A stretch of DNA of 40,966 nucleotides from Pseudomonadota bacterium (GCA_026388275.1 JAPLKB010000033.1:1-40966); one strand, 5' to 3'. Numbered from the stretch's first letter, positions 6,239 to 21,231 are shown. Numbers and translations are program-made. Notes: generated by a model from the sequence alone, not told the origin.

Positions 6239-6445
6239 AACGGCTGAATGCCAACAAGGAAGAAAGTAGGCCTAAGGAGAGGTCAAACGAAAACCGTTGT
6301 CATGTTATTATTAACCTTATCCCGAAGAAATGACCGTAGCACATCGCTAATTTTGTGATCTGGAAACGAAGGGTTTACAAAAAACTGTAATGAAAATGTA
6401 ATGACTTTTAAGGGGGTGACTCTAATAATATCAAGTAGTTAAAAG

Positions 6446-6518
6446 CGTCCCCACGGGGATTCGAACCCCGGTTGCCGGCGTGAAAGGCCAGTGTCCTAGG
6501 CCTCTAGACGATGGGGAC
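6446..6518 (-). tRNA. tRNA-Glu (anticodon UUC)
   Basis: Reading the minus strand, a 7-bp acceptor stem GTCCCCA/TGGGGAC, the D-arm GTCTAGAGGCCTAGGAC, an anticodon arm with loop CTTTCAC (anticodon TTC) and a T-arm GGGGTTCGAATCCCC fold perfectly. Discriminator G is at 6446. CCA is not encoded. It lies 5 bases downstream of tRNA-Lys in the same transcript. Confidence 0.97.
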
Positions 6519-6523
6519 ATATA

Positions 6524-6597
6524 TGGGCCGTGCAAGACTTGAACTTGCGACTCTCTGCTTAAAAGGCAGATACTCTACCAGCCTGAGTTAACGGCCC
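6524..6597 (-). tRNA. tRNA-Lys (anticodon UUU)
   Basis: On the minus strand the acceptor stem GGGCCGT/ACGGCCC, D-arm ACTCAGGCTGGTAGAGT, anticodon stem TCTGC/GCAGA with loop CTTTTAA (anticodon TTT) and T-arm GCAAGTTCAAGTCTTGC are all intact. Discriminator A is at 6524 and no CCA is encoded. It is first in the Lys-Glu tRNA pair. Confidence 0.97.
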
Positions 6598-6610
6598 GCT
6601 GAAGTGTACT

Positions 6611-6639
6611 AACATATTAAAATTTTCACGCATTGTCAA
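6611..6639 (-). promoter_or_regulatory. Promoter of the tRNA pair
   Basis: On the minus strand TTGACA (6639-6634), 17 bases, TATGTT (6616-6611). The predicted start lies just before tRNA-Lys, as expected for a stable-RNA promoter. Confidence 0.65.
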
Positions 6640-6833
6640 GTCTAATAAACCCCCTTGCATTGCATCGATATTTTCTTCATGCACGAAAGCGATGCCCACC
6701 TATCCTTTCCGTAATATTCAATATGATTAGCTGAAATAATACAGGTAGTATTGTAGGGTACGCGAAAACCGAGAGAAACCTAATTTTAAAATGTAAAATA
6801 TTTCGTTAAATATGGAAGGCAAATATCAACGAT

Positions 6834-6858
6834 AAAAAGTTATCACGCACTAACTTTT
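6834..6858 (-). terminator. Possible AT-rich terminator of the PC4-like gene
   Basis: AAAAGTTA (6835-6842) pairs with TAACTTTT (6851-6858), which overlaps the stop codon. On the minus strand the second arm ends in a run of T. The stem has only two GC pairs, so it is weak. Confidence 0.35.
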
Positions 6859-7069
6859 ACTTATCGGAAACCTTCTGCTTAGCCTCATTCAGAAATTTTA
6901 TCAAATCATCAACACTGTCCGGCGTGAGTGAAATACCTTTTTTTGTCGGTATCCATTCTCCTTCCTGATTTTCAAAGTATGTTCTGATGTCAATATACTG
7001 CTTTCCTTTAAACTCCTTTAATGTAATGATAATTTTATCTTTACCTTTCGCCAGTTCTCCTATCTGCAT
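6857..7069 (-). CDS. PC4/p15-type single-stranded DNA-binding coactivator homologue
   Basis: A 70-residue protein. AGGAGGGAG lies directly before the ATG. The sequence is a full PC4 (YdbC-like) domain: a basic strand KIIITLKEFKGKQYIDIRTYF, a turn EGEWIPTKKGISL, and a C-terminal helix DDLIKFLNEAKQKV. Bacterial members dimerise and bind single-stranded DNA through the curved sheet. They are thought to act in transcription or repair. The gene is alone between the tRNAs and the permease remnant. Confidence 0.85.
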   Translation of the reverse strand: MQIGELAKGKDKIIITLKEFKGKQYIDIRTYFENQEGEWIPTKKGISLTPDSVDDLIKFLNEAKQKVSDK

Positions 7070-7287
7070 ACTCCCTCCTTATAGCTCCATTTTAGCAAAT
7101 TGCCATAAAAAAATATACATAGCAAATATTTTTTTAAGAAAAAATTTACTTTTATAATTTTATATTGACAAAGATTACATTTCATTGATAACTATACCCA
7201 AAATTATGGATACCCCCCACAAAATGAGTCACTTCTCGTTTTTTATTCAACAATTCACAATAAAAAGCGCTTATATGTTTTTTAACA

Positions 7288-7789
7288 GTGCATTACAATT
7301 CTACGCTGCAAGAACACACAACTAATGAAAAGGCTTTGACAGCCATTCTGCTTGTAAGAGGATTCAGCGGCTTTGGCCTCCATACGCTGCTTTCTATAGT
7401 CCGTAATTTTCCTAACGTATACAAAAACTTTATCTTTGTCTCAGTTGCAGAGGTTGATTCCGGCACGTTTAAAGATATTGCCGAGATAGCAGCTTTGAAA
7501 AAATCAGTTGAAGAAAATCTAATAAAATATGTAAAAATTACCCGTCAACACGGATTTCCTGCTGATTATAGAACGGATGTGGGAACAGATGTGATAGATG
7601 AAGCCTCGGATCTTGTTGAAGCAACAGTCAAAGAGTTTCCGAGATCAACTGTTTTTACAGGAAAATTAGAATTCCGTCACAACAACCCTTTCCAGAAGAT
7701 ATCACAATGAAACAGCACACGCTATTCAGCGCAGGCTGCAGTGGAACGGTATACCAACGGTCATTTTACCGATACGGGTAAGCATTTAG
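7288..7789 (+). pseudogene. Remnant of an APC-family permease: only the C-terminal cytoplasmic domain, frameshifted
   Basis: The first frame (7288-7710, 140 residues) reads AILLVRGFSGFGLHTLLSIV, then FVSVAEVDSGTFKDI, a GTDVIDEA block and FTGKLEFRHNNPFQKIS. This matches the soluble tail that follows the membrane domain in many amino-acid permeases of Deltaproteobacteria. A TGA at 7708 ends it. The +1 frame continues the family motif exactly from 7703 (HNETAHAIQRRLQWNGIPTV, then ILPIRV) to TAG at 7787-7789, so one base is in excess near 7702. No membrane segments are encoded upstream and no good ribosome site precedes 7288. A free-standing regulator is possible, but decay is simpler. Confidence 0.72.
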
Positions 7790-7918
7790 CTTTACTTTGC
7801 TACAAATGACAAATAACGGTGGATTATTAAGAGAAGTTTATTGGGTATGTAAATACGGGTGGACATGCTGAATACCACCAAGGTGACCCCGCATCCACAT
7901 ACCATAAATATATATAAT

Positions 7919-7942
7919 CTGATCAACCCGGAGGTTGATCAG
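7919..7942 (-). terminator. Stem-loop after the sigma-54-controlled small gene
   Basis: A perfect 10-bp stem, CTGATCAACC (7919-7928) with GGTTGATCAG (7933-7942), and loop CGGA. It starts 4 bases after the stop of the minus-strand 67-residue gene. The following minus-strand sequence is AT-rich without a long T run. Confidence 0.6.
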
Positions 7943-7945
7943 TAA

Positions 7946-8149
7946 TCAGGCATTAACGGACAAGGACATCATGTCCTGGTTATCTGTATAACAATCAACG
8001 CAGTGTACTTTGTTGATTCTCTTTCTTTCCCTGCCGGCCTCAAGTTTTATTACACTGCTATCCGGAGAACTGCACCCGAATACTTCTATAAGCATCTCTT
8101 CCATAGTTTTGTTAGTAATATCAGATTCCGGACTCCATTTCACTGCCAT
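7946..8149 (-). CDS. 67-residue protein of unknown function under sigma-54 control
   Basis: I do not recognise this protein. It begins MAVKWSPESDITNKTMEEML and carries Cys26 (FGCSSPDSS) and a C-terminal CVDC pair (Cys50, Cys53). There is no signal peptide or membrane segment. Reality is supported by AAGGAGG a few bases before the ATG, a canonical sigma-54 promoter about 30 bases further upstream, and a stem-loop just after the stop. The CxxC could bind a metal or serve redox chemistry. A short acidic N-terminus and conserved-looking C-terminus would also suit a modified peptide precursor, but nothing proves that. It diverges from a sigma-54 activator gene that probably controls it. Confidence 0.7.
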   Translation of the reverse strand: MAVKWSPESDITNKTMEEMLIEVFGCSSPDSSVIKLEAGRERKRINKVHCVDCYTDNQDMMSLSVNA

Positions 8150-8193
8150 GGCACCCTCCTTAAGCTCCGATTTAATTACCTTGTATTTTTAAA

Positions 8194-8208
8194 GCAAGGA
8201 CTGTGCCA
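8194..8208 (-). promoter_or_regulatory. Sigma-54 (-24/-12) promoter of the 67-residue gene
   Basis: On the minus strand TGGCAC (8208-8203), five bases, TTGC (8197-8194): a match to the RpoN consensus TGGCAC-N5-TTGC with exact GG-N10-GC spacing. The predicted start is near 8182, leaving a leader of about 32 bases before the ATG at 8149. Confidence 0.85.
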
Positions 8209-8234
8209 AATGCCAATTAACTGTATAATCAGTA

Positions 8235-8317
8235 TGTTATACATAACAGGCATTACGAGACTGTTATATTCAACAGATATTAACTGATACATATCTCAGT
8301 ACTGCTAATAACTGTTA
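8235..8317. promoter_or_regulatory. Cluster of inverted repeats, candidate activator binding sites
   Basis: TGTTAT-AC-ATAACA (8235-8248) is a perfect inverted repeat. CTGTT-N6-AACAG (8261-8276) and TAAC-T-GTTA (8309-8317) are related. They lie roughly 30 to 110 bases upstream of the sigma-54 promoter, which is the usual enhancer distance. They also lie ahead of the divergent activator gene, so autoregulation is possible. Confidence 0.5.
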
Positions 8318-8335
8318 AATATGACGGAATATTAT

Positions 8336-8364
8336 TTGCATAGTTATAGGAAATCCTGTAAACT
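8336..8364 (+). promoter_or_regulatory. Candidate sigma-70 promoter of the sigma-54 activator gene
   Basis: TTGCAT (8336-8341), 17 bases, TAAACT (8359-8364). It is a moderate match, placed 36 bases before the ATG at 8400. Confidence 0.4.
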
Positions 8365-8399
8365 ACTAAGCACGGTAGGATTGTTTTGGATAAAGCTCT

Positions 8400-9941
8400 A
8401 TGAATGTAGATGAAAATCAATTTTTCAGAGAGATTACCTTGCGCATATGCGGGAGTCTCGAAATCGAGAAGGCACTCTGGCACTGCTTCCTCTATCTCCG
8501 GAATATCATCCCCACTGATGAACTTATTCTAACCGAATATAACCATGGTACTGGAACGCTTGATGTCGTTGCAATCGCCGATGAACATGGCGGCATATCA
8601 AGCACTGATAAGATCCCTATGCCTTCACACCTTCAGAAGCAATTGGAAGATCCCTTCAAATTCCCACGTGTAAGAGCATCCGACGATGTGTACAAGGACG
8701 AAATACTTGCAATTGTTGCCGTGAATTATAATTGGGCCGACTCCTCAATTATCGTTGGACGTCTCACTGTTGAAAACAAATTTGTCGGTTCTTTGATTGT
8801 CCGGGCTAAAGGAAAAGGAAGATACACGGAAGATGACGCAAAACTATGGTCCCTCATAAACGAGCCTGCGGCTGTAGCCCTTGCCAACAGCCGCCGTTAT
8901 ATGGAGTTAATGAATTTAAAAGAGTTGCTTGCAGATGATAGTAAATACTTCCAGAACGAGTTAAGGCGTGGGTTCAGTGAAGAGATTGTAGGCGCTGAAT
9001 TCGGTTTGAAAGGGGTAATGGAACAAGTCCTTAAAGTAGCGCCTCAGTCAAGTCCTGTATTGCTTCATGGTGAAACAGGAACCGGTAAGGAACTCATTGC
9101 GAATGCAATCCACAATTTTTCTCCAATGAAAAATGGACCGCTTATAAAGGTCAACTGTGGAGCCATACCGGAATCTCTTATCGACAGCGAACTTTTCGGT
9201 CACGAAAAAGGTGCTTTTACCGGCGCCTTATCCCAGCAGAGAGGCAGATTTGAGCGTGCCCACGGAGGCACCATCTTTCTCGATGAAGTAAGCGAACTGC
9301 CGTTCCATGCACAGGTACGTCTACTCAGAGTCTTACAAGAAAAAGAGATAGAGCGCGTCGGCGGAACCCGATCCATAAAAATTGATATACGTATTATCTC
9401 TGCCACTAACAAGGATCTCAAGTCACTTGTGAAAGGAAACCTCTTCAGGGACGATCTGTATTACCGCTTGTGCGTATTCCCCATCTATATCCCGCCTCTC
9501 AGGGAACGAAGAATTGACATCCCGACTCTCGTTGACTATTTCATGCGAAGAAAGGCAAATGAAATCGGATTACATTTTAAGCCTGCACTTCTGCCCGGCA
9601 CTATGGAGCAATTGATTGATTATGACTGGCCAGGGAACGTAAGGGAGTTGAGCAATGTTCTGGAACGTGCAATGATCATCCACGGCGGAAGGTCGCTCAG
9701 TTTTAAAGATATTATTGGCATTCAGGTGCATAACAACGAACATCCAGAATACAGTCCCGACAACAATGATCTGACGCTCGGCAATATTGAAGCACTGCAT
9801 ATAAGGTTGGCTTTAAAAATGGCTGGAGGTAGAGTGGAAGGAGAAAAAGGTGCAGCGGCCATCCTGGGGATAAATCCGGGGACCCTGCGCCATAGGATGA
9901 GAAAACTTGGCGTCTCCTTCGGCAGGGCAGCAAAGAAGTAG
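8400..9941 (+). CDS. Sigma-54-dependent transcriptional activator (GAF, AAA+, Fis-type HTH)
   Basis: A 513-residue enhancer-binding protein of the FhlA/NorR layout. A GAF-type sensor domain occupies about residues 15-170. The AAA+ domain has Walker A GETGTGK (224-230), the sigma-54 contact loop GAFTGA (271-276), Walker B IFLDE (292-296) and an arginine-finger region around FRDDLYYRL. A Fis-type helix-turn-helix closes the protein (AAAILGINPGTLRHRMRKL). All catalytic motifs are intact, so it should remodel sigma-54 holoenzyme. The ligand of the GAF domain cannot be read from the sequence. It diverges from a gene with a consensus sigma-54 promoter and is followed 73 bases later by a DUF6765 gene, its likely targets. 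The ribosome site is weak (GGAT). Confidence 0.93.
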   Translation: MNVDENQFFREITLRICGSLEIEKALWHCFLYLRNIIPTDELILTEYNHGTGTLDVVAIADEHGGISSTDKIPMPSHLQKQLEDPFKFPRVRASDDVYKDEILAIVAVNYNWADSSIIVGRLTVENKFVGSLIVRAKGKGRYTEDDAKLWSLINEPAAVALANSRRYMELMNLKELLADDSKYFQNELRRGFSEEIVGAEFGLKGVMEQVLKVAPQSSPVLLHGETGTGKELIANAIHNFSPMKNGPLIKVNCGAIPESLIDSELFGHEKGAFTGALSQQRGRFERAHGGTIFLDEVSELPFHAQVRLLRVLQEKEIERVGGTRSIKIDIRIISATNKDLKSLVKGNLFRDDLYYRLCVFPIYIPPLRERRIDIPTLVDYFMRRKANEIGLHFKPALLPGTMEQLIDYDWPGNVRELSNVLERAMIIHGGRSLSFKDIIGIQVHNNEHPEYSPDNNDLTLGNIEALHIRLALKMAGGRVEGEKGAAAILGINPGTLRHRMRKLGVSFGRAAKK

Positions 9942-10014
9942 TTCGGAAAGTTTTATGTCAATTATTTGGAGACGTACAAGATGCTATGATTTCGACAAAT
10001 ATTGGGAGTAAATT

Positions 10015-11001
10015 ATGGATATAGAATTTCATTACTACATTACTTACATCATTGCATGCAGGGCAGGTTTTAAGCCGGAAGATGCCAGAATAATTGCATA
10101 TTCGTCACAATATACAGATGACAATGATACAATATATAGAATTCATGAAGGTCATCCGGATGAATATGCAAACTATATCAGCCAGACGATGGATATCTTC
10201 AACCCGCAGAAAGAATATATGAGAATCTACCCTGTTTTTCATTTTATGCCGGGCACATTAACGGAAATTACCGGCGATTCGGCCTGGCGTCGTGACGGCA
10301 AGTTTCATATAATGAATACCATACCCGATAATCTCAACAGCAGGCAGTTGCTTCAGGCTGCCCTTTATTCTCGCAACCTCTATAGCATAGGTATAGCCAC
10401 ACATATGTATGCAGACACATTTGCTCATCAGAATTTTGTCGGATTTAATGAGGGTTTTAATGAAATGAAAGGTCTTTTTGAAGGCCTTATTCCTAATATC
10501 GGGCATGCAGATGCCAAACATAAACCGGATGAACCGGATCTGATATGGGAAGATGAACGTCTTATTCCAAGTATTTCGCAAATAGACAATAAGAAACGTT
10601 TCCTTGAGGCTGCCAGATGCATTTATGAAAAATACATTCGTTATCTCAACGCTCCCGATGACAGTAATAATTTTATAACTCTGATAGATGAAGCGATAGG
10701 TCCATACTACGGCAACGAAGAAGACCGTATTGATCGTTATAAGGCTTTGATCGGCAATAATTTCATTGAGTATGATAAAAAACAGTGGTTTAAAGAGGCA
10801 ATTGATTTTGTGAATACAGAAATTCCATATTCCGGCGGCGGATACAACGTCCCCATAAGTGAAACAGAATGGATATGGAGGGGAAATTACAAAGAAACCG
10901 ACTGGTACAAATTTCAGGAATCCGTAAAAGCTTACCAATGGTTAGCGATGGATACGGTTATCGGCCCTATCTTCGAGAAAATGGAATTTAAAGGTGTGTA
11001 G
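10015..11001 (+). CDS. DUF6765 family protein (putative zinc phospholipase C-like fold)
   Basis: A 328-residue protein. GGGAGT precedes the ATG. The N-terminus MDIEFHYYITYIIACRAGF followed by IAYSSQYTDDND is typical of DUF6765. A central GIATHMYADTFAHQNFVGF resembles the His/Asp metal ligands of zinc-dependent phospholipase C and S1/P1 nuclease folds (for example H6, the D-D pair near 34-36, and the two His around residues 129-138). There is no signal peptide, so it is probably cytoplasmic. The substrate is unknown. It follows the sigma-54 activator on the same strand with a 73-base gap and may be co-transcribed. The metal-hydrolase role is inferred from motif layout. Confidence 0.75.
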   Translation: MDIEFHYYITYIIACRAGFKPEDARIIAYSSQYTDDNDTIYRIHEGHPDEYANYISQTMDIFNPQKEYMRIYPVFHFMPGTLTEITGDSAWRRDGKFHIMNTIPDNLNSRQLLQAALYSRNLYSIGIATHMYADTFAHQNFVGFNEGFNEMKGLFEGLIPNIGHADAKHKPDEPDLIWEDERLIPSISQIDNKKRFLEAARCIYEKYIRYLNAPDDSNNFITLIDEAIGPYYGNEEDRIDRYKALIGNNFIEYDKKQWFKEAIDFVNTEIPYSGGGYNVPISETEWIWRGNYKETDWYKFQESVKAYQWLAMDTVIGPIFEKMEFKGV

Positions 11002-11046
11002 ATAGGGATAATCCAGTATGCTCTGTTGTCTATGTGCCCCGGTCCA

Positions 11047-11898
11047 TCATTTGTACTGCACATCCCCAAGTCTCGGGTGCATCCTGTGTTGTAATTCGAA
11101 CTCAACAGGAACATTGCCGGATAAACCCTTTACAATCTCTTCAATCTTTTTTTTGTCGTCTATATTGTGAAAAACACCTCCCACAAATAAACCATATTCT
11201 ACAAGCCCTTCTTCTTTTAACCTGACCTCCAGCGTTGGCACCGACAAATCAGGATTTATCGCAATTTCAGCCTTTATTTTTGCTGCAAGGGCCTTTAACT
11301 GTAATATATTCTTTGCTTTTTCCGTGCAGAGCTTATCTCTTTTTTCAAGCTCATTCTTTATAATGTCTGTAATTTCATCATATGTCTGTATGCTTGTATC
11401 AAAAACAAAATCATATTGCTCAGGATCGTCCAATGCACTTCCGTAAATCAAATAAACAGCGCCCGCCATCTCACTGTCTACCTTCTCTATCAGCCATCGG
11501 GCATTCTCACTGTTGTCGATTTCCAGCCATTTCATTACATTCTCAATCCTCTTTTCAATCGGTGCTATTGTTCGTATCCTTAATGCATGAGGTATCCCTT
11601 TCAATAAAAAATTTCCGCCTCTACCCATAATTACAATCCTGTCATGCATGGCATAATTAAGAATATGGCTCTGGTTTAATGCCACAAAACCCCTGTAAGA
11701 CCATTCATATCTCTCTATGATAGTCGGTTGATTTTCGTCAAGATATTTTGTCAGCTCTTCCCAATTGACTCCTACCTTCTTCATATCCTCAAGTATTTGC
11801 TTTCTGTCAATATATGCATAATTCAACAACGTGGCAATGTTTTTGCCTATCTCTTTTCCTCCGCTTCCGTATTCCCTTGCTATCGTTAATATGGCCAT
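11047..11898 (-). CDS. Cytidylate kinase-like protein with C-terminal BON-like domain (paralogue A)
   Basis: A 283-residue protein with AAGGAGG before the ATG. The N-terminus MAILTIAREYGSGGKEIGK is the degenerate P-loop of the cytidylate-kinase-like family (PF13189 type), which lacks the classic GK[ST] ending. Shared blocks with the second copy at 16274 include ERYxWSxRGFVAL and VIMGRG. After a helical linker the last 70 residues (VPTLEVRL ... GGVFHNIDD ... VPVEFELQHR) resemble a BON-like fold. The normal family reaction is transfer of phosphate to CMP/dCMP, but this branch is not experimentally assigned. It starts 33 bases after an ion-transporter gene, probably in the same operon. A role in regulating that transporter is inference. 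Confidence 0.82.
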   Translation of the reverse strand: MAILTIAREYGSGGKEIGKNIATLLNYAYIDRKQILEDMKKVGVNWEELTKYLDENQPTIIERYEWSYRGFVALNQSHILNYAMHDRIVIMGRGGNFLLKGIPHALRIRTIAPIEKRIENVMKWLEIDNSENARWLIEKVDSEMAGAVYLIYGSALDDPEQYDFVFDTSIQTYDEITDIIKNELEKRDKLCTEKAKNILQLKALAAKIKAEIAINPDLSVPTLEVRLKEEGLVEYGLFVGGVFHNIDDKKKIEEIVKGLSGNVPVEFELQHRMHPRLGDVQYK

Positions 11899-11931
11899 AG
11901 CCCCTCCTTTTAAAAGTCTTTTTGGAAGAAT

Positions 11932-13266
11932 CTATTTCTGAAATGGAATTACCCAGATCAGCATAGCAGGAATATAACAAAAAATGAGTGATATAATAAC
12001 ATAGGGCACAGTAATGCCCAGAAATTCTTTCAGACCGACCTTTCTCTGGTCTTCTTTTTCACCCATGCTTTTTGCTACAAATAATGCAGGTGCACCGGCA
12101 ACGGTGAGGTTGCTTCCCAGCGTACCGGCCCATAACAGCATCCAGTACAGGGGCCAGGGGTTCATTCCTGTATCTTTACACAGGTCTCTGATAACATAGA
12201 GCATAGTAAGGATATAAGCATCGTGCTCCACAATGCCAACGATAGGGGCTGTTACCCAGTAAAGTGCTGTAGCACCCACAATAAGGCTCTTCTGGATTAA
12301 CGGCGTAATTGCATTGGATACAAGCTTTATCACTCCTGCATGTTCCAGTCCTCCAACCAAGGCAAATAGGGAGACATAAAAGAATACTGCCCTCCAGTCC
12401 AGTTCGGAAAACACTTGTTCAATATTGGGAATTTCCAGGGTAAAACGGTCCTTAAAAACTTCAAATATTAGCATGATTGCCATAGCGCCCCACATAGCAA
12501 TAAATCCGAGGGTATAACCAAAGACAGGACGAAAAGCCATGGCAATAATTGTAATGACAAAAATACTGCATGTAATTATGGCAAAAGGTTTATCCTTGAT
12601 ATGATCAAGGGGCTTTTCCTCAGACATGGATGCAACATCCATCCTGATATCTTTGTACTTTTTCGAAAATAACCAGTAAAAAAATCCGCAGGTAATGATA
12701 TATGAAATACAAAGGATAAAAAATGATGATGGCCGCCCCATATACCACAGAAAACCATTGAATTCTATGCCTGACACGCTATGGAGCATCTGCGGAGGCA
12801 AATCACCCAGCAGCATGGCAGTGCCCATAAAGTTTGCACAAAGACCAACAAACATCACAGGCGCAAATGCAGGAAATTTAAATCGTCGACATGCATGAAA
12901 AACAACGGGTGCAAACATAAGGACAACAACTACATTATCAATCAACATGGATACAAATCCGGCAAGCATACCAAGGACTGTTACAAATATTGCCACGTTC
13001 CCCTTAGACATCTTTAAGATTATGGCAGCCAAAAAATCAGGTACACCGGATTTACCAAAATAGCCTGATATTATCCAAATACTCAGGAGTATAGCTATAA
13101 CATTCCAATCAACAATCTTAAAGGCATCAATATCGCTGTATATGCCTACAAAAATCATCAGAATGATCCCTGAGAGCGCAGCGATGACGCTGTCAATCCA
13201 ACCGGTGATTACAAGGATGATACTGGCGAGGAAGATAACGCTTGCTGCAATTTGCATAAAATCCAT
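11932..13266 (-). CDS. NhaD/ArsB-type ion transporter (IT superfamily)
   Basis: A 444-residue inner-membrane protein with about 11-12 hydrophobic segments in two related halves. Typical family segments are SMLIDNVVVVLMFAPVVFHA in the first half and LGSNLTVAGAPALFVA in the second, the latter being the re-entrant motif conserved in NhaD Na+/H+ antiporters and ArsB. GGGGG lies 8 bases before the ATG. The gene follows the OadB gene on the same strand after a strong terminator-like hairpin and precedes the kinase-like gene. Given the sodium-pump neighbour, Na+ transport is more likely than arsenite, but the sequence does not decide it. Confidence 0.85.
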   Translation of the reverse strand: MDFMQIAASVIFLASIILVITGWIDSVIAALSGIILMIFVGIYSDIDAFKIVDWNVIAILLSIWIISGYFGKSGVPDFLAAIILKMSKGNVAIFVTVLGMLAGFVSMLIDNVVVVLMFAPVVFHACRRFKFPAFAPVMFVGLCANFMGTAMLLGDLPPQMLHSVSGIEFNGFLWYMGRPSSFFILCISYIITCGFFYWLFSKKYKDIRMDVASMSEEKPLDHIKDKPFAIITCSIFVITIIAMAFRPVFGYTLGFIAMWGAMAIMLIFEVFKDRFTLEIPNIEQVFSELDWRAVFFYVSLFALVGGLEHAGVIKLVSNAITPLIQKSLIVGATALYWVTAPIVGIVEHDAYILTMLYVIRDLCKDTGMNPWPLYWMLLWAGTLGSNLTVAGAPALFVAKSMGEKEDQRKVGLKEFLGITVPYVIISLIFCYIPAMLIWVIPFQK

Positions 13267-13299
13267 TTCTCATGACCCCCTGTTATTTAGTATACAAAA

Positions 13300-13330
13300 T
13301 ACAAAAAAGGCGGGAAATAATCCCGCCTTT
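13300..13330 (-). terminator. Rho-independent terminator after oadB
   Basis: AAAGGCGGGA (13306-13315) pairs perfectly with TCCCGCCTTT (13321-13330) across a 5-base loop. On the minus strand it is followed by TTTTGTATTTTG. It separates OadB from the transporter gene, so downstream genes may depend on read-through or another promoter. Confidence 0.85.
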
Positions 13331-13374
13331 AGTTTTATCAAATATTTTAAAAAATGTATACAATATTTTTTAAA

Positions 13375-14514
13375 TCATATTACTCCCATAGCTTTCAGCA
13401 CGGACAGCATAACTGCTGCTGCCATGACAGAACCTACCTGGCCGCCTGCATTTGCACCCATAGCGTGCATAAGGAGATAACTCTTTCTGTTGTATTTCTG
13501 GCCTTCCTTCTGTACTACTCTTGCAGACATAGGGAATGCTGAGATACCGGCTGCTCCGATCAGAGGATTCACTTTCCCGCCTGTCACGTAATACAGTATC
13601 TTTCCAAAAAGTACTCCACCTACTGTGTCAAGACATATAGCCAAAAGACCCAGTGCAAGAATAATCAAGGTTGTAGGTTTCACAAATAATGGTCCGTTCA
13701 TTGTAGCGCCGATTGATAATCCGAGAAACAAGGTAACGATGTTGGCTATCTCATTTTCAGATGCCTTCGTAAGTCTGGCAACTGCGCCTGACTCCTTCAT
13801 GAAATTGCCCAGCATAATCGTTGCAAGAAGCGGTAAGCCCATTGGAGCAATAAGTCCACCAACAACTGTGATGACAATAGGAAAAAGTAATGCTGTTGTG
13901 TCTGACACCGTCTTCTTGTGCGTCTTCATGATAGTCTCACGTTCTTTCTTTGTGGTAAGCATCCTCATAATCGGCGGCTGAAGCACCGGTACCAATGACA
14001 TGTACGAATATGCCGCAACCGTGCATGGACCAAGCAGTTCCTTTGCATATTTGGATGCCACAAAGATAACTGTCGGTCCGTCACATGCGCCTATGATTCC
14101 GATGGTGACAGCTTCGTTATAGGGAAAACCCATCCAAAGGGCAAGAAGAAGTACCAGGAATATACCGAGCTGCCCTGCTGCCCCCAGAAGAAAAGTATAT
14201 GGGCTTTCAAGGACAGGTCTGAAATCCGTCATGGCCCCGATACCGACAAAAATGAGCAAGGGGAACAATTCTGTTATAACACCCATGTCATAGAGAGTCC
14301 TGAGAAAGCCTTCTTTTTCCATAAGGTCTGCAAGGGGAACATTCACGATAATACAGCCGAAACCGATGGGAACAAGAAGTAATGGCTCAAAATCTTTTTT
14401 AATTCCCAGATAAAGGAGGATTCCACCTATTATCATCATCACCACATTTGACCAATGCAGGGCTGAAATGCCTGCAATAAGTCCTGATAAACCACCTAAT
14501 ATTGCTTCAGTCAT
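13375..14514 (-). CDS. oadB: Sodium-ion translocating decarboxylase beta subunit
   Basis: A 379-residue membrane subunit of the OadB/MmdB/GcdB family, which couples decarboxylation of a biotin-bound acyl group to Na+ export. The family motif GIIGACDGPTVIFVASKYA contains the essential Asp. ATMNGPLFVKP and SAFPMSARVVQKEGQ are also typical. GGAGG precedes the ATG. Length is normal. A 44-residue gamma-like gene lies just upstream (17 bases). No alpha (carboxyltransferase) or biotin subunit is encoded in the window, so substrate (oxaloacetate, methylmalonyl-CoA or glutaconyl-CoA) cannot be named. Confidence 0.93.
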   Translation of the reverse strand: MTEAILGGLSGLIAGISALHWSNVVMMIIGGILLYLGIKKDFEPLLLVPIGFGCIIVNVPLADLMEKEGFLRTLYDMGVITELFPLLIFVGIGAMTDFRPVLESPYTFLLGAAGQLGIFLVLLLALWMGFPYNEAVTIGIIGACDGPTVIFVASKYAKELLGPCTVAAYSYMSLVPVLQPPIMRMLTTKKERETIMKTHKKTVSDTTALLFPIVITVVGGLIAPMGLPLLATIMLGNFMKESGAVARLTKASENEIANIVTLFLGLSIGATMNGPLFVKPTTLIILALGLLAICLDTVGGVLFGKILYYVTGGKVNPLIGAAGISAFPMSARVVQKEGQKYNRKSYLLMHAMGANAGGQVGSVMAAAVMLSVLKAMGVI

Positions 14515-14531
14515 CTAATTTTCCTCCTTTC

Positions 14532-14666
14532 CTATTCTTCTTCTTTTTTGTACGGGAAAATCTTTTTCAAACCACTCATTATAAAACTGAATAAAATGAG
14601 TGTAGCAATTGTTCCGCCCATGCCTACTACAAGCAAGGTTAAACCGAATGTCCATTTATCCATCAT
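14532..14666 (-). CDS. Small gamma-like subunit of a sodium-pump decarboxylase (44 residues)
   Basis: Starts MMDKWTFGLTLLVVGMGGTI, then a single membrane helix ending FSFIMSGLKKIFPYKK and an acidic end EEE. This is the layout of OadG-type gamma subunits reduced to the membrane anchor. AGGAGG lies 7 bases before the ATG at 14666. The gene is 17 bases upstream of oadB and certainly in its operon. OadG normally holds the alpha and beta subunits together and binds zinc. The zinc-binding tail is absent here. Confidence 0.85.
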   Translation of the reverse strand: MMDKWTFGLTLLVVGMGGTIATLILFSFIMSGLKKIFPYKKEEE

Positions 14667-14704
14667 AAGCCTGCCTCCTTGGGGTTTGATATGTTAATGC
14701 TGTT

Positions 14705-14734
14705 ATTAAAAATGATTAACGGATACTTTGTCAA
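14705..14734 (-). promoter_or_regulatory. Promoter of the sodium-pump operon
   Basis: On the minus strand TTGACA (14734-14729), 18 bases, TTTAAT (14710-14705), giving a leader of about 30 bases before the small gamma-like gene. Confidence 0.5.
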
Positions 14735-15369
14735 GGGAATATTTTCACATATAGCCCTTTCTTTGACAATCTCCAAATATAGCCATTGCAGAATTAGCAA
14801 CATTATTTTAAATTTTATTAATCATGCTATATATCTAAAAAATTCTTTATAAGGCAGGCAGCAAAGGCTCAAGAATATTAGGGGGTTAAATAATAACATG
14901 AACCTGTGCTGCAAAATAAATTAAATCTGCCTTTTCATCCTTAAAGTATTACAACAGGCTCTTCATGCCAGGTTTCAAATATGTAAATTTCAACATCGTC
15001 TTGCACTTGTCAAAAAGTGCTGCATAAAACTTCAGAAATATATTCTCCATCGCTTGCCGCAGCGCAACTCACTAAATAAGAATTATTGTATTATGTGAAC
15101 GCATTCACATTCAATCAGGAAATCCCTGATTTTCAGATTCTATTTGTATGGTTGGAGATAAGGGAAAACCTTAGACGAAATAAAAAAAGCGCTTACCCCA
15201 ACTAAGTATAATAATTTTTTAGAATCTTCTGACAACTCAGGTTTTTCGAAGGGAAATATCAGGATTAACCTTATTGACAATAAAGGTTGCATGGGTTAAA
15301 AATACCATGTGATTTTTTATACAAGCATTATGAATGCGGTGATTGAAAATTGTTTTATAAATATGCCTT
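14735..15369. other. Long divergent intergenic region, no gene supported
   Basis: AT-rich sequence between the two transporter arms. No open frame with a ribosome site was found. A 71-codon minus-strand frame at 15237-15452 has no ribosome site or family resemblance. A second possible rightward promoter is TTGACA-17-TAAAAA at 15274-15302. The region may hold a small RNA or operators, but nothing specific was recognised. Confidence 0.4.
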
Positions 15370-15399
15370 TTGCATAAGCATTCCCATCTGCTGTATAAT
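15370..15399 (+). promoter_or_regulatory. Candidate promoter of terC with a folded leader
   Basis: TTGCAT (15370-15375), 18 bases, TATAAT (15394-15399). The leader of about 115 bases before terC has short complementary arms (GCAGG/CCTGC and GCCTG/CAGGC). I could not fit it to the yybP-ykoY manganese riboswitch that often precedes TerC-family genes. Confidence 0.5.
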
Positions 15400-15521
15400 G
15401 TAAGCAGGCACAAGGATTTTTCCTGCATCGCCTGACATCGTTTCACAGGCATGTCAAAAGGATATTTACAACAATTTTACAATAGATTAAAATATAAATA
15501 CTATTTTGTGAGGTGGACGTT

Positions 15522-16253
15522 ATGGATTTTGGAAGTTTCGGGCATTTTAGTTTCACATGGGAGTTTGTAAGCTCTTTTTTAATGATAATATTGATCGATC
15601 TGGTCCTGGCAGGTGACAATGCAGTTGTTATTGCAATGGCTGTCCGGAACCTTTCGCCCAAACAAAGATTGAAGGGCATTATGATGGGCGCAGGCGGAGC
15701 AATTATCTTGAGGGTTGGACTCACAATTGTTGTTGCCCAGCTTCTCGGCATAAAGGGACTGAAGTTCTGTGGCGGCGCCCTTATTTTTTGGATAGCTCTG
15801 AAACTTTTTATAGAGGGCGGACCTGAAGAGGGGATCAAGAAAGAGCCGAAGAGCATATGGGAGGCTATGATAACCATTGTAATTGCCGATATTGTCATGA
15901 GTCTCGATAACATGCTTGCCGTTGCCGGCGCGTCCCACGGCAATAATTTTCTGATCATCTTCGGACTCGTTTTGAGCATTCCATTTATTGTATTTACAAG
16001 CAACCTTCTTTCCATGTTGATGGATAAATATCCCATTATTGTATACCTTGGGGCCATGGTGCTTGGAAAAGTGTCAGGGGAGATGATAATTACAGATCCC
16101 TATGTCCAGTCATTCCTCCACACAGGCAAGGCTACCCAGTATATCGTAGAGGTTGCAGGCGCTGTTTTAGTTGTTGTTATAGGGAAACTCTGGATGAAGA
16201 TGAAGCGCGATAAGGCAGCTCAAGAAGAAAGCAAAGAAGCACACACAAACTGA
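15522..16253 (+). CDS. TerC family integral membrane protein
   Basis: A 243-residue protein. The ATG at 15522 is chosen over an in-frame GTG at 15513 because AGGTGG (15511-15516) is its ribosome site. About seven membrane helices. Family motifs with acidic residues inside the membrane are LIDLVLAGDNAVVIAMA near the N-terminus and IADIVMSLDNMLAVAGASHG in the middle. TerC/YceF relatives export Mn2+ or help load metals on exported enzymes, and others are linked to tellurite resistance. The gene is followed 20 bases later by a cytidylate-kinase-like gene, an obvious operon. Confidence 0.9.
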   Translation: MDFGSFGHFSFTWEFVSSFLMIILIDLVLAGDNAVVIAMAVRNLSPKQRLKGIMMGAGGAIILRVGLTIVVAQLLGIKGLKFCGGALIFWIALKLFIEGGPEEGIKKEPKSIWEAMITIVIADIVMSLDNMLAVAGASHGNNFLIIFGLVLSIPFIVFTSNLLSMLMDKYPIIVYLGAMVLGKVSGEMIITDPYVQSFLHTGKATQYIVEVAGAVLVVVIGKLWMKMKRDKAAQEESKEAHTN

Positions 16254-16273
16254 AATAAGGAGGTTTATTATTT

Positions 16274-17074
16274 ATGGCAACCTTAACCATATCAAGGCAG
16301 CACGGAAGCAGCGGCAGGTATATAGGACAGGAAATAGCACGTGAAATAGGGTATGAATACATTGACAGAGAAAAAATACTTACGGATATCAGAGCAAAGG
16401 GGCAGGATTGGGAAAAATGGGAAAAAGAATTTGCAGAACATAACCCCACCATATGGGAAAGATACGACTGGTCTTTCAGGGGATTTGTGGCGCTGCAGCA
16501 AAGCCTGATATTTGATTATGCATTAAAAGATAATGTTGTAATCATGGGCAGAGGTGCAAACTTTCTCCTTAAGGATGTCCCCTACGTTCTTAGAGTTCGT
16601 TTTGAAGCTCCTCTTGATAAAAGAATCGAGATGGTACAGGAACGTGAGGATATGGACAGCGCTACTGCTAAGTGGATGATAAACAAGCTTGATAAAGAAA
16701 GCAAGGGCTTTATTGGAACAGTATATGGCGCAGACTGGAATGTTCATACATATTATGACATCATATTCAATACGGCTGTCCAATCTGCAGATGTAATTAA
16801 GACATCTCTGAAAGCATCTATTGCTGAAAAAGATCAACTGAAAACAGAAGAAGCAATAAAAACACTTAAGATGAAGGCTGCTGCATTTTATGTAAAAGCC
16901 GGAATATTGACAAATTCAAAATTCTTTGTTCCAACTCTTAACGTGTTCTCGAGCAATGACACAATTGTTATTAAAGGAGTAGTTCATAATCCTAAAGAGT
17001 ATAAAAGTATTGAGGATGAGGCAAGGCGTCTTGCCGGTGACGTACCTTTAAAGTGCGAGCTAAAATACCGCTGA
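16274..17074 (+). CDS. Cytidylate kinase-like protein with C-terminal BON-like domain (paralogue B)
   Basis: A 266-residue paralogue of the protein at 11047. AAGGAGG lies about 10 bases before the ATG. P-loop region TISRQHGSSGRYIGQEIARE, even further from a classic Walker A than paralogue A (GSSGR against GSGGK). The blocks ERYDWSFRGFVALQQS and VVIMGRGANFLLKDVP match paralogue A nearly word for word. The C-terminus FVPTLNV ... IKGVVHNPKEY ... CELKYR is again BON-like. Probably cytoplasmic. It sits 20 bases after terC and is closed by a strong terminator, so TerC and this protein form a two-gene unit. Kinase activity is possible but unproven. A regulatory nucleotide-binding role is an alternative. 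Confidence 0.82.
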   Translation: MATLTISRQHGSSGRYIGQEIAREIGYEYIDREKILTDIRAKGQDWEKWEKEFAEHNPTIWERYDWSFRGFVALQQSLIFDYALKDNVVIMGRGANFLLKDVPYVLRVRFEAPLDKRIEMVQEREDMDSATAKWMINKLDKESKGFIGTVYGADWNVHTYYDIIFNTAVQSADVIKTSLKASIAEKDQLKTEEAIKTLKMKAAAFYVKAGILTNSKFFVPTLNVFSSNDTIVIKGVVHNPKEYKSIEDEARRLAGDVPLKCELKYR

Positions 17075-17103
17075 AAATTTGGATAAAAAAATATGTCAGA
17101 AGC

Positions 17104-17138
17104 ATAACGGCCAGGATTATCCTGGCCGTTATTTTTTT
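17104..17138 (+). terminator. Strong rho-independent terminator after the terC unit
   Basis: A perfect 13-bp stem, ATAACGGCCAGGA (17104-17116) with TCCTGGCCGTTAT (17120-17132), followed by a T run to 17138. It also lies between convergent genes and could serve the regulator gene on the other strand. Confidence 0.92.
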
Positions 17139-17153
17139 AATGTATGTGTTAAA

Positions 17154-17801
17154 CTACAATGATGTAAGCCCTTCCCTTATCGCATATTTTGTCAGTTCGG
17201 CGATACTGTGCATGTTCAGTTTCTCCATAACCTGCTGCCGGTGTGTTTCAATTGTCTTAATACTGATATTCAAATAAACTGCTATCTGTTTGGTTGTTTT
17301 GCCTTCTGCAAGCAGTTGGAGCACCTCCCGTTCCCTTGTAGTTAAAGCCGAAAAAGCCGTAGTTTCATTTGCAGGTATATTGTGAATATATTCCTTTATC
17401 ACCACATCCGTTATCTTCGGGCTTAAATATGGCTGGCCGGACATAACGGTCTGAATTGCCAGTTCAAGTTCTTCGAAGGCGCTATCCTTCAGAAGATATC
17501 CTGATGCCCCCGCTTTCAGCATCTGGAGCACAAACCTTCTGTCCGAATGCATTGAAAGGGCAATGACTCTGATATCCTTTGTTTCTGCGATAATCTGGCG
17601 CGTTGCATCAATGCCGTTCATATCGGGCATACCTATATCCATGATCACAATATCCGGTAAAAGCTTTTTTGCAAGACGTACAGTTGTTAATCCATCCTGT
17701 GCTTCTGCAACAACCTCCATGGCCTTATTCTTTTCAAGCAGTGCATGGAGGCCCTCCCTTATAATTTTATGATCATCTGCCAGAATAATTTTTATACTCA
17801 T
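17154..17801 (-). CDS. LuxR/NarL-family response regulator
   Basis: A 215-residue protein. The receiver domain has the acidic pair D9/D10, phospho-acceptor D55 (IVIMDIGMPDMNG), Ser83 (IALSMHS) and Lys105 (GYLLKD). The output is a LuxR-type helix-turn-helix from about residue 148 (LTTREREVLQLLAEGKTTKQ, then ISIKTIETHRQQVMEKL). It binds DNA as a dimer when phosphorylated. Its partner is very likely the HisKA_3 kinase encoded upstream on the same strand. The two genes are pulled apart by about 440 bases containing an IS3 remnant and repeats. Targets are unknown. Confidence 0.93.
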   Translation of the reverse strand: MSIKIILADDHKIIREGLHALLEKNKAMEVVAEAQDGLTTVRLAKKLLPDIVIMDIGMPDMNGIDATRQIIAETKDIRVIALSMHSDRRFVLQMLKAGASGYLLKDSAFEELELAIQTVMSGQPYLSPKITDVVIKEYIHNIPANETTAFSALTTREREVLQLLAEGKTTKQIAVYLNISIKTIETHRQQVMEKLNMHSIAELTKYAIREGLTSL

Positions 17802-17862
17802 TAAAATCTCCCCTTCTATTAATGGGGCTCACGTCGCCCCCTCCACCAGCAAAGCTGTCGGA

Positions 17863-17969
17863 GCCACCCCTTCTCGCTCAAGAATGAGCTAAGGGGTTGT
17901 TGTAAATTCAATTTTTCCGTCTTCACTATTCACTATATACTATTCACTATTCACTGTTGTGGGGCTCAC
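17863..17969. repeat. 107-base direct repeat, copy 1
   Basis: Nearly identical to 18131-18237. It begins GCCACCCCTTCTCGCTCA, contains a hairpin (CCCCTT/AAGGGG outside, GCTCA/TGAGC inside), then a low-complexity run of TTCACTA/TATACTA heptamers, and ends GGGGCTCAC. The last nine bases occur a third time at 17824-17832. Confidence 0.88.
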
Positions 17970-18130
17970 TGACCCCTGATGTCAATAGTGGACACCAATC
18001 ATATTCATGCTGCCTTCCTTCCTGCATAAAATTGCCGTTCATAAACAACGGGGGATAAATATCCAAGCCTTTTCTGCCGACGTTGCCGATTATAAAAGAC
18101 CTCAATGTCGACCCGCAAGCGGGTACCCCG
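17970..18130 (-). mobile_element. Truncated IS3-family element: right end and transposase tail
   Basis: On the minus strand 18112-18005 reads VDIEVFYNRQRRQKRLGYLS, then PVVYERQFYAGRKAA and a stop. This is the C-terminal end of an IS3-family OrfB transposase. After the stop comes the element tip, ending TGTCCACTATTGACATCAGG then GGTCA at 17970, a plausible terminal inverted repeat. The catalytic DDE core and the left end are missing. The remnant fits exactly between the two 107-base repeats. Confidence 0.8.
18005..18112 (-). pseudogene. C-terminal fragment of IS3-family transposase OrfB
   Basis: About 35 codons ending in TGA at 18005-18007. The YNRQRRxKRLGYLSPVxYE pattern is diagnostic of IS3-group integrases. 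Nothing of the upstream catalytic domain remains before the repeat copy at 18131. Confidence 0.8.
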
Positions 18131-18237
18131 GCCACCCCTTCTCGCTCAAGAATGAGCTAAGGGGTTGTTGTAAATTCAATCTTTCCGTCTTCACTATTCA
18201 CTATATACTATATACTATTCACTGTTGTGGGGCTCAC
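18131..18237. repeat. 107-base direct repeat, copy 2
   Basis: Same length and nearly the same sequence as 17863-17969. Differences seen are a T/C in the TCAATTTTT segment and one heptamer (TATACTA for TTCACTA). It ends 3 bases before the histidine kinase stop codon. Confidence 0.88.
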
Positions 18238-18240
18238 ATA

Positions 18241-19971
18241 TTAATGTTTTAGCGGTGCATATAGAATTACCCTTGTTCCACGATTTTTTTGCGACCTGAT
18301 TTCCATCTGACCTTCAAGATGGTGCAACCGTTCGCGGATACTGAAAAGTCCGAATCCCTTATTTTCATCAAAATAAAAATTCATCTTTGCAGCGTTAAAC
18401 CCGACACCGTTATCTGCAACATGAATAGATATATTGCTTTCTATTTTCCGCACAGTTACCTTTACTGTCCGTGCATGGGCATGTTTCGCAACATTTGCCA
18501 GAAGCTCTCGTACTGCCGTAAAAAGAAAAATACGTATCTCATCATTGACAGGTTTGAACTGATTATCGTTTTCAAACTCATAGTCAATTTTATGCTGTTC
18601 GTGAATCTGCTCTGTCAGCCATTCAAGCGCTGCCTCAAGACCGAGATCATAAAGGATTGGCGGGCTCAGTTCAAAAGTCAATGAACGGGTATAACGGATT
18701 GCCTGCTCAATATGTTCCCTGACTTCATTTAATTTTTCGATTAACGTGTTTGCTGTTTCATATTTCAGTAATGCGCCCAGCTTAATCTTGGAAACAGCGA
18801 GTACCTGACCGATATGATCATGGAGCATGTTAGCTATGCGCCGCCTCTCTTTCTCCTCTGTCAGCGAGAGGTCTGATGCCAGAGATCTGAGCTGCTTCTG
18901 GTAAGAGTGTATTTTTTCTTCAGCTTTTTTCTGCTCGCTTATGTCCTCTACGGTTCCCTCATAATACAGGACTGCGCCGTCCGCTCCCCTTATTGCCTTG
19001 GCATTCTCTCGCATAAAAACTACTGAATTTCCGCGCCTACTCCATTTTACCTCAAATCCTCTTACCCTTTCCTCTTTTTCAAGGCGCTTTTTGAGCCTCT
19101 TTTTAAGGTATGTAGGTTCGTAATCCCCTTTTTTCAATTGACTCGATGCCATTTCATTAAATGAGTTGTACCCGAGCATTCTGATCAGAGTGGGATTGGC
19201 CATCAGAATCCTTCCATCAGGATTTGTCCGGTAAATACCTATTGGAGAATTTTCAAAAAGATTCCTGTAGCGCTCCGCACCTTTGCGAAGCATCTCCTCG
19301 ATGCGTTTACGCCTGTTCAGCTCCAGAGTAAGACGTTCGTTTGTATCCAGCAATTCTGCTGTCCGTTCTTTTACCCTTTGTTCTAACTCGTCTTTAGCCT
19401 TCTGCAGCGCCTCCTCAACCTGTTTATGTTTCGTGATATCATTGTTTATCTCCATTATAGCTATTGGATCGCCTTTATTATTTCTCTTTAGAGCCCATCT
19501 ACTTCCTACAGCTATTCGCACACTGTCGCGCCTTGTATGGATAAGCTCACCATCCCAACGTCCATTAACGAATACATCTGCCTTAATCTCTTCAAACGGT
19601 TTGGAAAATTCTGTACGCAGGAGCGTATGTATATTTTTTCCTATGGCTTCTTCCTTTGTCCACCCGTAACGTTCTACCGCCCCGTTGTTCCAGAATGTAA
19701 TCATTCCATCAAGATCACCTACGATGATTGCATCTTCTGCAATTTCAAGAAGTTCTGCCTGGTCTCTCAGTTTATCCGACTGTTTCTGTAATTCTTCTTT
19801 TGCATGTTTTTGAGAAGATTGCTTCATTAAACGCCGGCATTGTTTCTCACTTTCCTTTAGAACCTTTTGAATATACTTTAATTTTGGCTGCAAACGTTCA
19901 AGCCGGGCAACTTTATTCCGCAACATAATAAGTTCTTTTTCCATACTGTTGCAGCTTTCTTTTTTATTCAT
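18241..19971 (-). CDS. Cytoplasmic PAS sensor histidine kinase (HisKA_3 / NarX-UhpB type)
   Basis: About 576 residues from the ATG at 19971, chosen because GGAG lies 6 bases upstream; an ATG at 19983 and a TTG at 19986 are alternatives. An N-terminal coiled coil is followed by one PAS domain (LEIAEDAIIVGDLDG ... FWNNGAVERYGWTKEEAIG), a coiled coil with ERTAEL, a second PAS (FENSPIGIYRTNPDG ... ANPTLIRMLGY), the dimerisation box with phospho-His (ERRRIANMLHDHIGQVLA) and the ATPase domain (RELLANVAKHAHA, VADNGVGF, GFGLFSIRERL). There are no membrane segments, so it should sense a cytoplasmic signal. It pairs with the LuxR-type regulator at 17154. Confidence 0.92.
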   Translation of the reverse strand: MNKKESCNSMEKELIMLRNKVARLERLQPKLKYIQKVLKESEKQCRRLMKQSSQKHAKEELQKQSDKLRDQAELLEIAEDAIIVGDLDGMITFWNNGAVERYGWTKEEAIGKNIHTLLRTEFSKPFEEIKADVFVNGRWDGELIHTRRDSVRIAVGSRWALKRNNKGDPIAIMEINNDITKHKQVEEALQKAKDELEQRVKERTAELLDTNERLTLELNRRKRIEEMLRKGAERYRNLFENSPIGIYRTNPDGRILMANPTLIRMLGYNSFNEMASSQLKKGDYEPTYLKKRLKKRLEKEERVRGFEVKWSRRGNSVVFMRENAKAIRGADGAVLYYEGTVEDISEQKKAEEKIHSYQKQLRSLASDLSLTEEKERRRIANMLHDHIGQVLAVSKIKLGALLKYETANTLIEKLNEVREHIEQAIRYTRSLTFELSPPILYDLGLEAALEWLTEQIHEQHKIDYEFENDNQFKPVNDEIRIFLFTAVRELLANVAKHAHARTVKVTVRKIESNISIHVADNGVGFNAAKMNFYFDENKGFGLFSIRERLHHLEGQMEIRSQKNRGTRVILYAPLKH

Positions 19972-20000
19972 CCGTTTCTCCATCAAATAACCTGTGATAA

Positions 20001-20028
20001 TTTATAATATGTCCGGTCTGATTGTCTA
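20001..20028 (-). promoter_or_regulatory. Candidate promoter of the histidine kinase gene
   Basis: On the minus strand TAGACA (20028-20023), 16 bases, TATAAA (20006-20001). It is a moderate match about 30 bases before the chosen start. Confidence 0.4.
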
Positions 20029-20068
20029 TAGATTAAGAAAATAACTTTAGTTTGAAGCTATTCTGCCA

Positions 20069-20096
20069 TTGACAAAAAGCAGGGGCAAAGTATAAA
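20069..20096 (+). promoter_or_regulatory. Candidate promoter of ispG
   Basis: TTGACA (20069-20074), 16 bases, TATAAA (20091-20096), followed by an AT-rich leader of about 70 bases to the ATG at 20173. Confidence 0.6.
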
Positions 20097-20172
20097 ATTG
20101 GACAAGCATTTAAAAAATAAAATAAATAAATGACTATCGGGTAAGATCATTAACTTATCGGCAGGGACAAAG

Positions 20173-21231
20173 ATGAAAAGGAAATTAACGAAAAAAATTA
20201 GTATTGGTAAAGTTCCTATTGGCGGCAATAGCCCGATAATTGTTCAATCAATGCTCAAAACTCATCCCGAAAACCCGCAGGAAACATTAGACCAGGCAAT
20301 GGCTCTCAAAAAAGCCGGATGTGAGCTGATAAGGATAGCATTACCACAGGAAGATACATGTAATATTATTCCTTTTCTAAAAAGAGAGATAGATACGCCC
20401 CTGATAGGAGATATTCACTTTAATTATAAGATTGCAATAAAAGCGATGGAACTCGGTATTGACGCAATACGCATAAATCCTGGAACAATCAATAACGTGC
20501 GAAAGGTAAAAGAGATTGTCCTTGTTGCAAAAGAAACAAAAACACCGATACGTATCGGTCTGAATACCGGCTCAATTGAGAAAAGAATACTTAAGAAATA
20601 CTCCAGACCATGTGCAGATGCAATGGTTGAAAGTGCGCTTTATTATGTAAAATTCTTTGAAGATCTTGGTTGGAGGGAGCTGAAGGTATCCCTGAAGGCT
20701 TCAGACATATACCAGACGATTGATGCATATAAAAAATTTTCAGAACAGTCGGATTACCCTCTTCACGTCGGTATCACAGAAGCCGGTCCAATATTCTCAG
20801 GCGCTATAAAATCTGCCATAGGCATAGGTATATTACTATATGAAGGCATAGGAGATACTATCAGAGTTTCCCTCACAGGGAACCCTGTTTATGAGGTTAC
20901 CGCTGCATATCATATTCTCAGGGACCTCGGCCTTAGAAAAAGGGGCATTAACATCATATCGTGCCCTACCTGTGGAAGGTGTAAAACCAGTATATTCGAT
21001 ATTGTGGCAGATTTCGAAAAAGAAGTTGACCATTTTGAGACAAATCTGAATGTAGCCATCATGGGCTGTGAAGTTAACGGACCGGGAGAGGCAAAAGAAG
21101 CTGATATCGGCATAGCATTCGGCGCCAATAAAGCTGTTCTGTTTTCCAGGGGGGTTATTATTAAAACAGGTATACCAAAAGAAATGGCAAAGAACATCCT
21201 CAAGGAAGAAATTTATAATATGACATCATAA
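20173..21231 (+). CDS. ispG: 4-hydroxy-3-methylbut-2-enyl diphosphate synthase (MEP pathway)
   Basis: A 352-residue IspG/GcpE of normal bacterial length. The enzyme reduces methylerythritol cyclodiphosphate to HMBPP with a 4Fe-4S cluster. The N-terminal TIM-barrel-like part has VQSMLKTHPENPQETLDQ and IRINPGTI. The cluster ligands are visible as Cys264 and Cys267 (SCPTCGRC) and Cys299 (MGCEVNGPGEAKEADIG), with the catalytic Glu306 in NGPGE. Ribosome site is weak (CAGGGAC). It shows the organism makes isoprenoids by the MEP route. Monocistronic from its own promoter; the next gene is convergent. Confidence 0.96.
   Translation: MKRKLTKKISIGKVPIGGNSPIIVQSMLKTHPENPQETLDQAMALKKAGCELIRIALPQEDTCNIIPFLKREIDTPLIGDIHFNYKIAIKAMELGIDAIRINPGTINNVRKVKEIVLVAKETKTPIRIGLNTGSIEKRILKKYSRPCADAMVESALYYVKFFEDLGWRELKVSLKASDIYQTIDAYKKFSEQSDYPLHVGITEAGPIFSGAIKSAIGIGILLYEGIGDTIRVSLTGNPVYEVTAAYHILRDLGLRKRGINIISCPTCGRCKTSIFDIVADFEKEVDHFETNLNVAIMGCEVNGPGEAKEADIGIAFGANKAVLFSRGVIIKTGIPKEMAKNILKEEIYNMTS

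Follow-up and report, generated by a model that had tools for sequence, protein, structure and literature searches.

A PF13189 kinase-fold subfamily with BON-type tails encoded directly behind TerC and PF03600 transporters

Introduction

Why would a genome carry two cytidylate-kinase-like genes a few kilobases apart, each directly behind the gene of a membrane transporter? This arrangement was examined in a window of 40,966 nucleotides (the whole stretch of DNA analysed; Pseudomonadota bacterium, GCA_026388275.1, JAPLKB010000033.1:1-40966). A first-pass annotation had proposed that the two proteins, here called KinA and KinB, are dedicated partners of ion transporters. To our knowledge, the regulation of TerC-type metal exporters is poorly known. 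For PF13189, the family to which KinA and KinB belong, structures have been solved, yet no assigned function was found in the literature.

Gene organization of the locus

The two divergent arms comprise the following genes:

11047–11898, minus strand: KinA, PF13189 kinase-fold domain (about residues 1–190) with a BON-type tail (Pfam 6.8e-36)
11932–13266, minus strand: PF03600 (CitMHS/ArsB-type) permease, called NhaD-like in the first-pass annotation (PF03600 3e-53)
13375–14514, minus strand: OAD_beta, membrane beta subunit of a Na+-translocating decarboxylase (PF03977 4e-144; TIGR01109 above its cut-off)
14532–14666, minus strand: OAD_gamma-like membrane peptide of 44 aa (PF04277 3.2e-5, 25.0 bits, below the cut-off of 27)
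15513–16253, plus strand: TerC, YjbE type (PF03741 4.5e-46; TIGR03717 213.8 bits, above the curated cut-off of 134.8 for the YjbE family)
16274–17074, plus strand: KinB, PF13189 kinase-fold domain with a BON tail (Pfam 6.8e-36)

The leftward arm runs from the OAD_gamma-like peptide through OAD_beta, its first large gene, and the PF03600 permease to KinA, and the rightward arm consists of TerC and KinB. On recheck, the originally described layout of a transporter followed by a kinase-like gene in each arm was exact in coordinates, gene order, and gaps (33 bases between the permease and KinA, 20 bases between TerC and KinB). Each transporter is the sole gene of its kind in the genome.

The label "NhaD-like" had to be dropped: the NhaD model TIGR00775 found no match anywhere in the genome at E 0.001, and the protein scores 181.5 bits against PF03600 CitMHS (Pfam cut-off 31.9) and is more weakly related to ArsB and MamN. 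A yybP-ykoY Mn2+ riboswitch was likewise looked for ahead of terC and not found; positions 6000–20200 gave no Rfam match of this type at E up to 5.

Three further features of the window were recorded. The OAD_beta gene and OAD_gamma-like peptide (13375–14666) have no alpha/carboxyltransferase gene directly beside them. Genes for a LuxR-type response regulator and a PAS histidine kinase lie convergent after KinB (17154–19986), and similar genes adjoin a run of TerC, OAD, permease, and kinase genes in genome G020 and locus L102. Two neighbouring tRNA genes are located on the minus strand at 6446–6597.

Domain architecture of KinA and KinB

KinA and KinB share 44% identity over 272 aligned positions (E 2e-80), which agrees with the long shared blocks noticed at first pass, and each scores 124.5 bits for PF13189 Cytidylate_kin2 (Pfam gathering cut-off 28). 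An AlphaFold2 model of KinB, built from 79 relatives, had a pLDDT of 93.1 and a pTM of 0.90. The solved structures nearest to its residues 1–190 were 3hdt (Z 21.1) and 3fdi (Z 20.6), with CMP kinases next.

The BON-like C-terminus that had been suspected is weak in single sequences and clear for the family by profile and element order. Searched singly with PF04972, KinB reached 14.0 bits (0.064), below the cut-off of 27, and KinA was not listed. By contrast, Pfam BON matched 7/18 family members (best 1.4e-6), and the family profile matched OsmY (8rjx) at 3.8e-10 over residues 183–266. The tail of the KinB model has the alpha-beta-beta-alpha-beta order of BON (helix 192–212, strands 223–227 and 230–237, helix 240–254, strand 259–265). 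The domain search listed no CBS or CorC_HlyC domain for KinA, KinB, or the TerC-kinase open frame of locus L075 described below.

Gapless alignment to the genome's own Cmk places Gly14 at the Walker-A lysine and Arg or Lys15 at the following Ser. The first Walker-A Gly is replaced by Arg8, invariant in 78/78 relatives, and the CMP-binding insert of the genome's Cmk is missing from both proteins. The non-classical P-loop read from the sequence was thus confirmed as an altered Walker-A motif. It is not peculiar to these two proteins: more distant PF13189 proteins (tier 2, below) and other copies have the same change, making it a trait of PF13189 overall.

A canonical cmk lies elsewhere in the genome between hisC-like and ispH-like genes, so that neither of the two genes is its sole cmk. 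Given this cmk and the altered P-loop, and since KinA and KinB carry neither the GxxGxGK[ST] Walker-A motif nor the CMP insert of metabolic Cmk, their sequences indicate that neither is the cell's CMP kinase. They also scored 30.6 and 41.5 bits for the archaeal-type (d)CMP kinase model TIGR02173, below its curated cut-off of 102.1. An unusual kinase activity may nevertheless exist, because the kinase fold and several conserved Arg and Asp residues (R8, R93, R117, D140, and D162) remain.

Gene neighborhoods of the subfamily

Scanning 84,980 species genomes yielded 80 relatives, from lineages of Nitrospirota and Desulfobacterota. One of these relatives lay at a contig edge, leaving 79 with readable upstream DNA. 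A transporter gene was directly upstream in 73 of the 79, and it always belonged to one of two families: TerC in 54 (once as a single open frame with the kinase) and a PF03600 permease in 19. Median transporter-kinase gaps were 32 nt for TerC and 11 nt for PF03600. As background, 22 of 141 soluble genes of 200–350 aa in the same loci had a same-strand polytopic membrane neighbour. The pairing that had seemed hard to ascribe to chance in the window lies well above this background.

The family profile split the PF13189 proteins of 395 genomes of the phylum into two separate tiers. TerC or a PF03600 permease was directly upstream in 17/20 tier-1 loci versus 0/20 tier-2 loci (Fisher p 2.6e-8; a few of the 395 genomes were also in the genome scan, which makes the two samples less than fully independent). 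Tier 2 comprises more distant PF13189 proteins, many of them likewise BON-tailed. Its frequency of polytopic same-strand neighbours (14/68) is near background, and a transporter link for all BON-tailed PF13189 proteins is thereby ruled out. The association is therefore a property of the tier-1 subfamily and not of PF13189 or BON in general, and the BON tail alone is no marker of the role, since BON-tailed PF13189 proteins without transporter neighbours exist. By sequence, the transporter-linked group is a well-separated PF13189 subfamily, and the dedicated partnership first proposed for KinA and KinB is well supported by genomics.

The specificity holds on the transporter side as well. In the TerC tree, the kinase is carried only by TerCs of the YjbE type; it is absent from 20 TerCs of other types and from seven YjbE-type TerCs.

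Pairing of tier-2 proteins with transporters is limited to small clades: SLC13-TrkA_C with tandem kinases, TauE, and one PF07399 antiporter. In L223, L227, L231, and L239, an SLC13-type permease bearing a TrkA_C domain is encoded 14–87 nt upstream of the kinase gene of one tier-2 clade, and each locus holds a second, divergent PF13189 kinase. L197:2563-5243 encodes a 520-aa PF13189 protein that carries an additional region at its C-terminus and has predicted transmembrane segments; a TauE/SafE permease gene comes 23 nt after it. TauE also lies near kinases in L224, L230, and L238. Another BON-tailed PF13189 group follows nicotinate phosphoribosyltransferase-like genes (L157, L159, and L163), and a link to NAD metabolism is possible from this gene context.

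Phylogeny and change of transporter

In the kinase tree (79 sequences), the 20 PF03600-linked members all fell into one clade (99/92; 100% of bootstraps) nested in the TerC-linked diversity. KinA sits in this clade, every member of which lies behind a PF03600 permease. Because the PF03600-linked kinases form one clade inside the TerC-linked ones, the kinase changed its transporter a single time. The simplest reading of the tree would be one duplication plus a transporter switch, in or near the Syntrophorhabdales line. The window genome keeps the TerC-linked and PF03600-linked versions side by side, and the related genomes G027 and G038 each combine a kinase-less TerC with a permease-linked kinase. 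In most PF03600-type loci the permease gene is preceded by OAD_beta. These loci share a much wider synteny by descent, many of them with the order IspG, OAD_beta, permease, kinase.

Exceptions and variant loci

Six of the 79 relatives departed from the pattern. The kinase is divergent from TerC in L085, lies behind a Ca-type P-type ATPase in L134 and ahead of one in L103, and has neither TerC, a PF03600 permease, nor a Ca-type ATPase beside it in L110, L127, and L133, the last of which falls in a different, tier-2 group. A phylum-sample locus, L183, also has the kinase divergent from TerC. Most exceptions thus still adjoin a cation transporter (L134, L103, L085, and L183). Kinases with a Ca-type P-type ATPase gene after them are also found in L091, L102, L107, L115, L187, and L188. 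L180 has the order TerC, kinase, PF03600, and in L186 a second, more distant PF03600 permease gene lies ahead of the kinase.

In L075, TerC and the kinase form one open frame on a single MAG contig. As a possible natural fusion it is weak evidence for partnership, because a ribosome-binding-like GGAGG is present at the junction together with an in-frame GTG; the two parts may be translated separately, or the single frame may be an assembly error. No second stop-free TerC-kinase fusion was found in the 395 genomes, where in-frame neighbours were parted by stops.

Two variants concern the wider gene order. In L102, TerC, OAD_beta, permease, kinase, and P-type ATPase genes form one same-strand run, which suggests that both arms of the window make up a single ion-homeostasis island. 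In many Nitrospirota loci (for example L057, L064, L128, and L132), a PF03601 (YeiH-like) membrane protein is encoded directly upstream of TerC.

Proposed function and alternative explanations

We propose that KinA and KinB act in the cytosol as dedicated partners, or regulatory subunits, that adjust ion export by the preceding transporter, a reading to which we assign a probability of roughly 0.55. A nucleotide is the most likely ligand of the N-terminal NMP-kinase fold, in which the canonical Walker-A lysine has been lost. For the C-terminal BON domain, cation binding or docking to the transporter or the membrane is most likely. KinB would tune ion export by TerC, and KinA that by the PF03600 permease, in step with the nucleotide or ion state of the cytosol, by analogy to the action proposed for CBS-pair/CorC_HlyC modules on TerC, CNNM, and Na+/H+ exchangers. 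Gene adjacency argues for shared function and not for contact; physical contact, ligand binding, regulation, and the direction of transport are what we infer for KinA and KinB.

The best-surviving alternative, which we consider unlikely, is that the proteins are active small-molecule kinases, with the transporter moving the kinase's substrate or product or a needed metal, so that each pair forms a short metabolic pathway. The confident kinase-fold model, whose nearest structures after those of PF13189 are CMP kinases, would suit an enzyme, and the five conserved Arg and Asp residues resemble a maintained site; against this, the Walker lysine and the next Ser/Thr are lost and the genome has a dedicated cmk. 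CDP-alcohol phosphatidyltransferase and inositol-phosphate synthase genes near some loci also count in its favour, but they lie on the opposite strand or 4–5 kb distant. A common substrate also explains poorly why one subfamily serves two unrelated transporter folds, and TerC relatives have been studied as metal exporters (PMC10550928).

Still less probable is a metal or nucleotide-metal chaperone that hands ions to the transporter and does not gate it. The Bacillus TerC proteins MeeF and MeeY act in metalation during secretion (PMC10550928, PMC12096827), and Kbp, which binds K+ in the cytosol, is a BON protein (as cited in PMC7806268). However, no conserved Cys/His metal site was seen in the family consensus, and the switch to a PF03600 permease is not readily explained by a chaperone.

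Co-expression alone, in which a common promoter or regulation without joint action yields the pattern as synteny by descent, finds some footing in the longer ancestral order of many PF03600-type loci, but it is the least probable of the three, as TerC and the kinase stay paired in two phyla despite changes in the flanking genes, the kinase moved to a second transporter with adjacency retained, and tier-2 relatives of the same phylum do not have the pattern.

Beyond regulatory partnership of KinA and KinB, a broader reading is offered tentatively, at slightly under even odds. The subfamily would constitute a new class of transporter subunit in which a Walker-lysine-less NMP-kinase fold joined to BON senses nucleotide and cation state and controls unrelated exporters (TerC, PF03600 permeases, and perhaps P-type ATPases), having been moved between them by gene duplication. 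A family locked to transporters across two phyla, even after a switch, offers a testable function for TerC regulation and for PF13189, and a genome that has the two versions together, each paired with the sole transporter of its kind, is a convenient natural comparison.

Comparison with known systems

The component families are known; what appears new is that they are combined and that the combination is tied to transporters, and no published account of the kinase-transporter pairing was found in the part of the literature covered. RCK/KTN subunits of TrkH-type transporters are likewise separate cytosolic nucleotide-binding proteins encoded beside the transporter. The likeness is one of logic only, as the Rossmann fold of RCK/KTN is unrelated and there is no homology.

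By family, fold, and altered P-loop, the PF13189 structures 3hdt and 3fdi correspond to KinA and KinB; their chains match KinB over the kinase part only and do not include the BON tail. BON occurs in cytosolic or membrane-linked ion biology in sensors and channels such as Kbp (BON and LysM), BON with MscS, and CBS-CBS-BON proteins (PMC7806268), whereas in KinA and KinB it is paired with a kinase fold. That paper mentions "PF13189" and "cytidylate kinase" once each, and the kinase-BON combination may be listed in it.

The TerC-CBS-CorC_HlyC proteins (MgpA/YoaE and YegH) and free CorC are alike in joining a TerC membrane domain to a cytosolic nucleotide-binding module, and TerC fused to CBS and CorC_HlyC also occurs in the same phylum (L198). 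In Salmonella, CorC domains are attached to TerC (with CBS), CNNM, and Na/H exchangers and are postulated to be cation sensors (PMC12421838). Like the kinase-BON proteins, the CBS/CorC_HlyC module is joined to several unrelated transporters. KinA and KinB differ in that they combine the PF13189 fold with BON, have no CBS or CorC_HlyC domain, and belong to a subfamily that is nearly always encoded as a separate gene. The CBS-pair/CorC_HlyC module is most likely the nearest working model for KinA and KinB, as an analogy and not as a family to which they belong.
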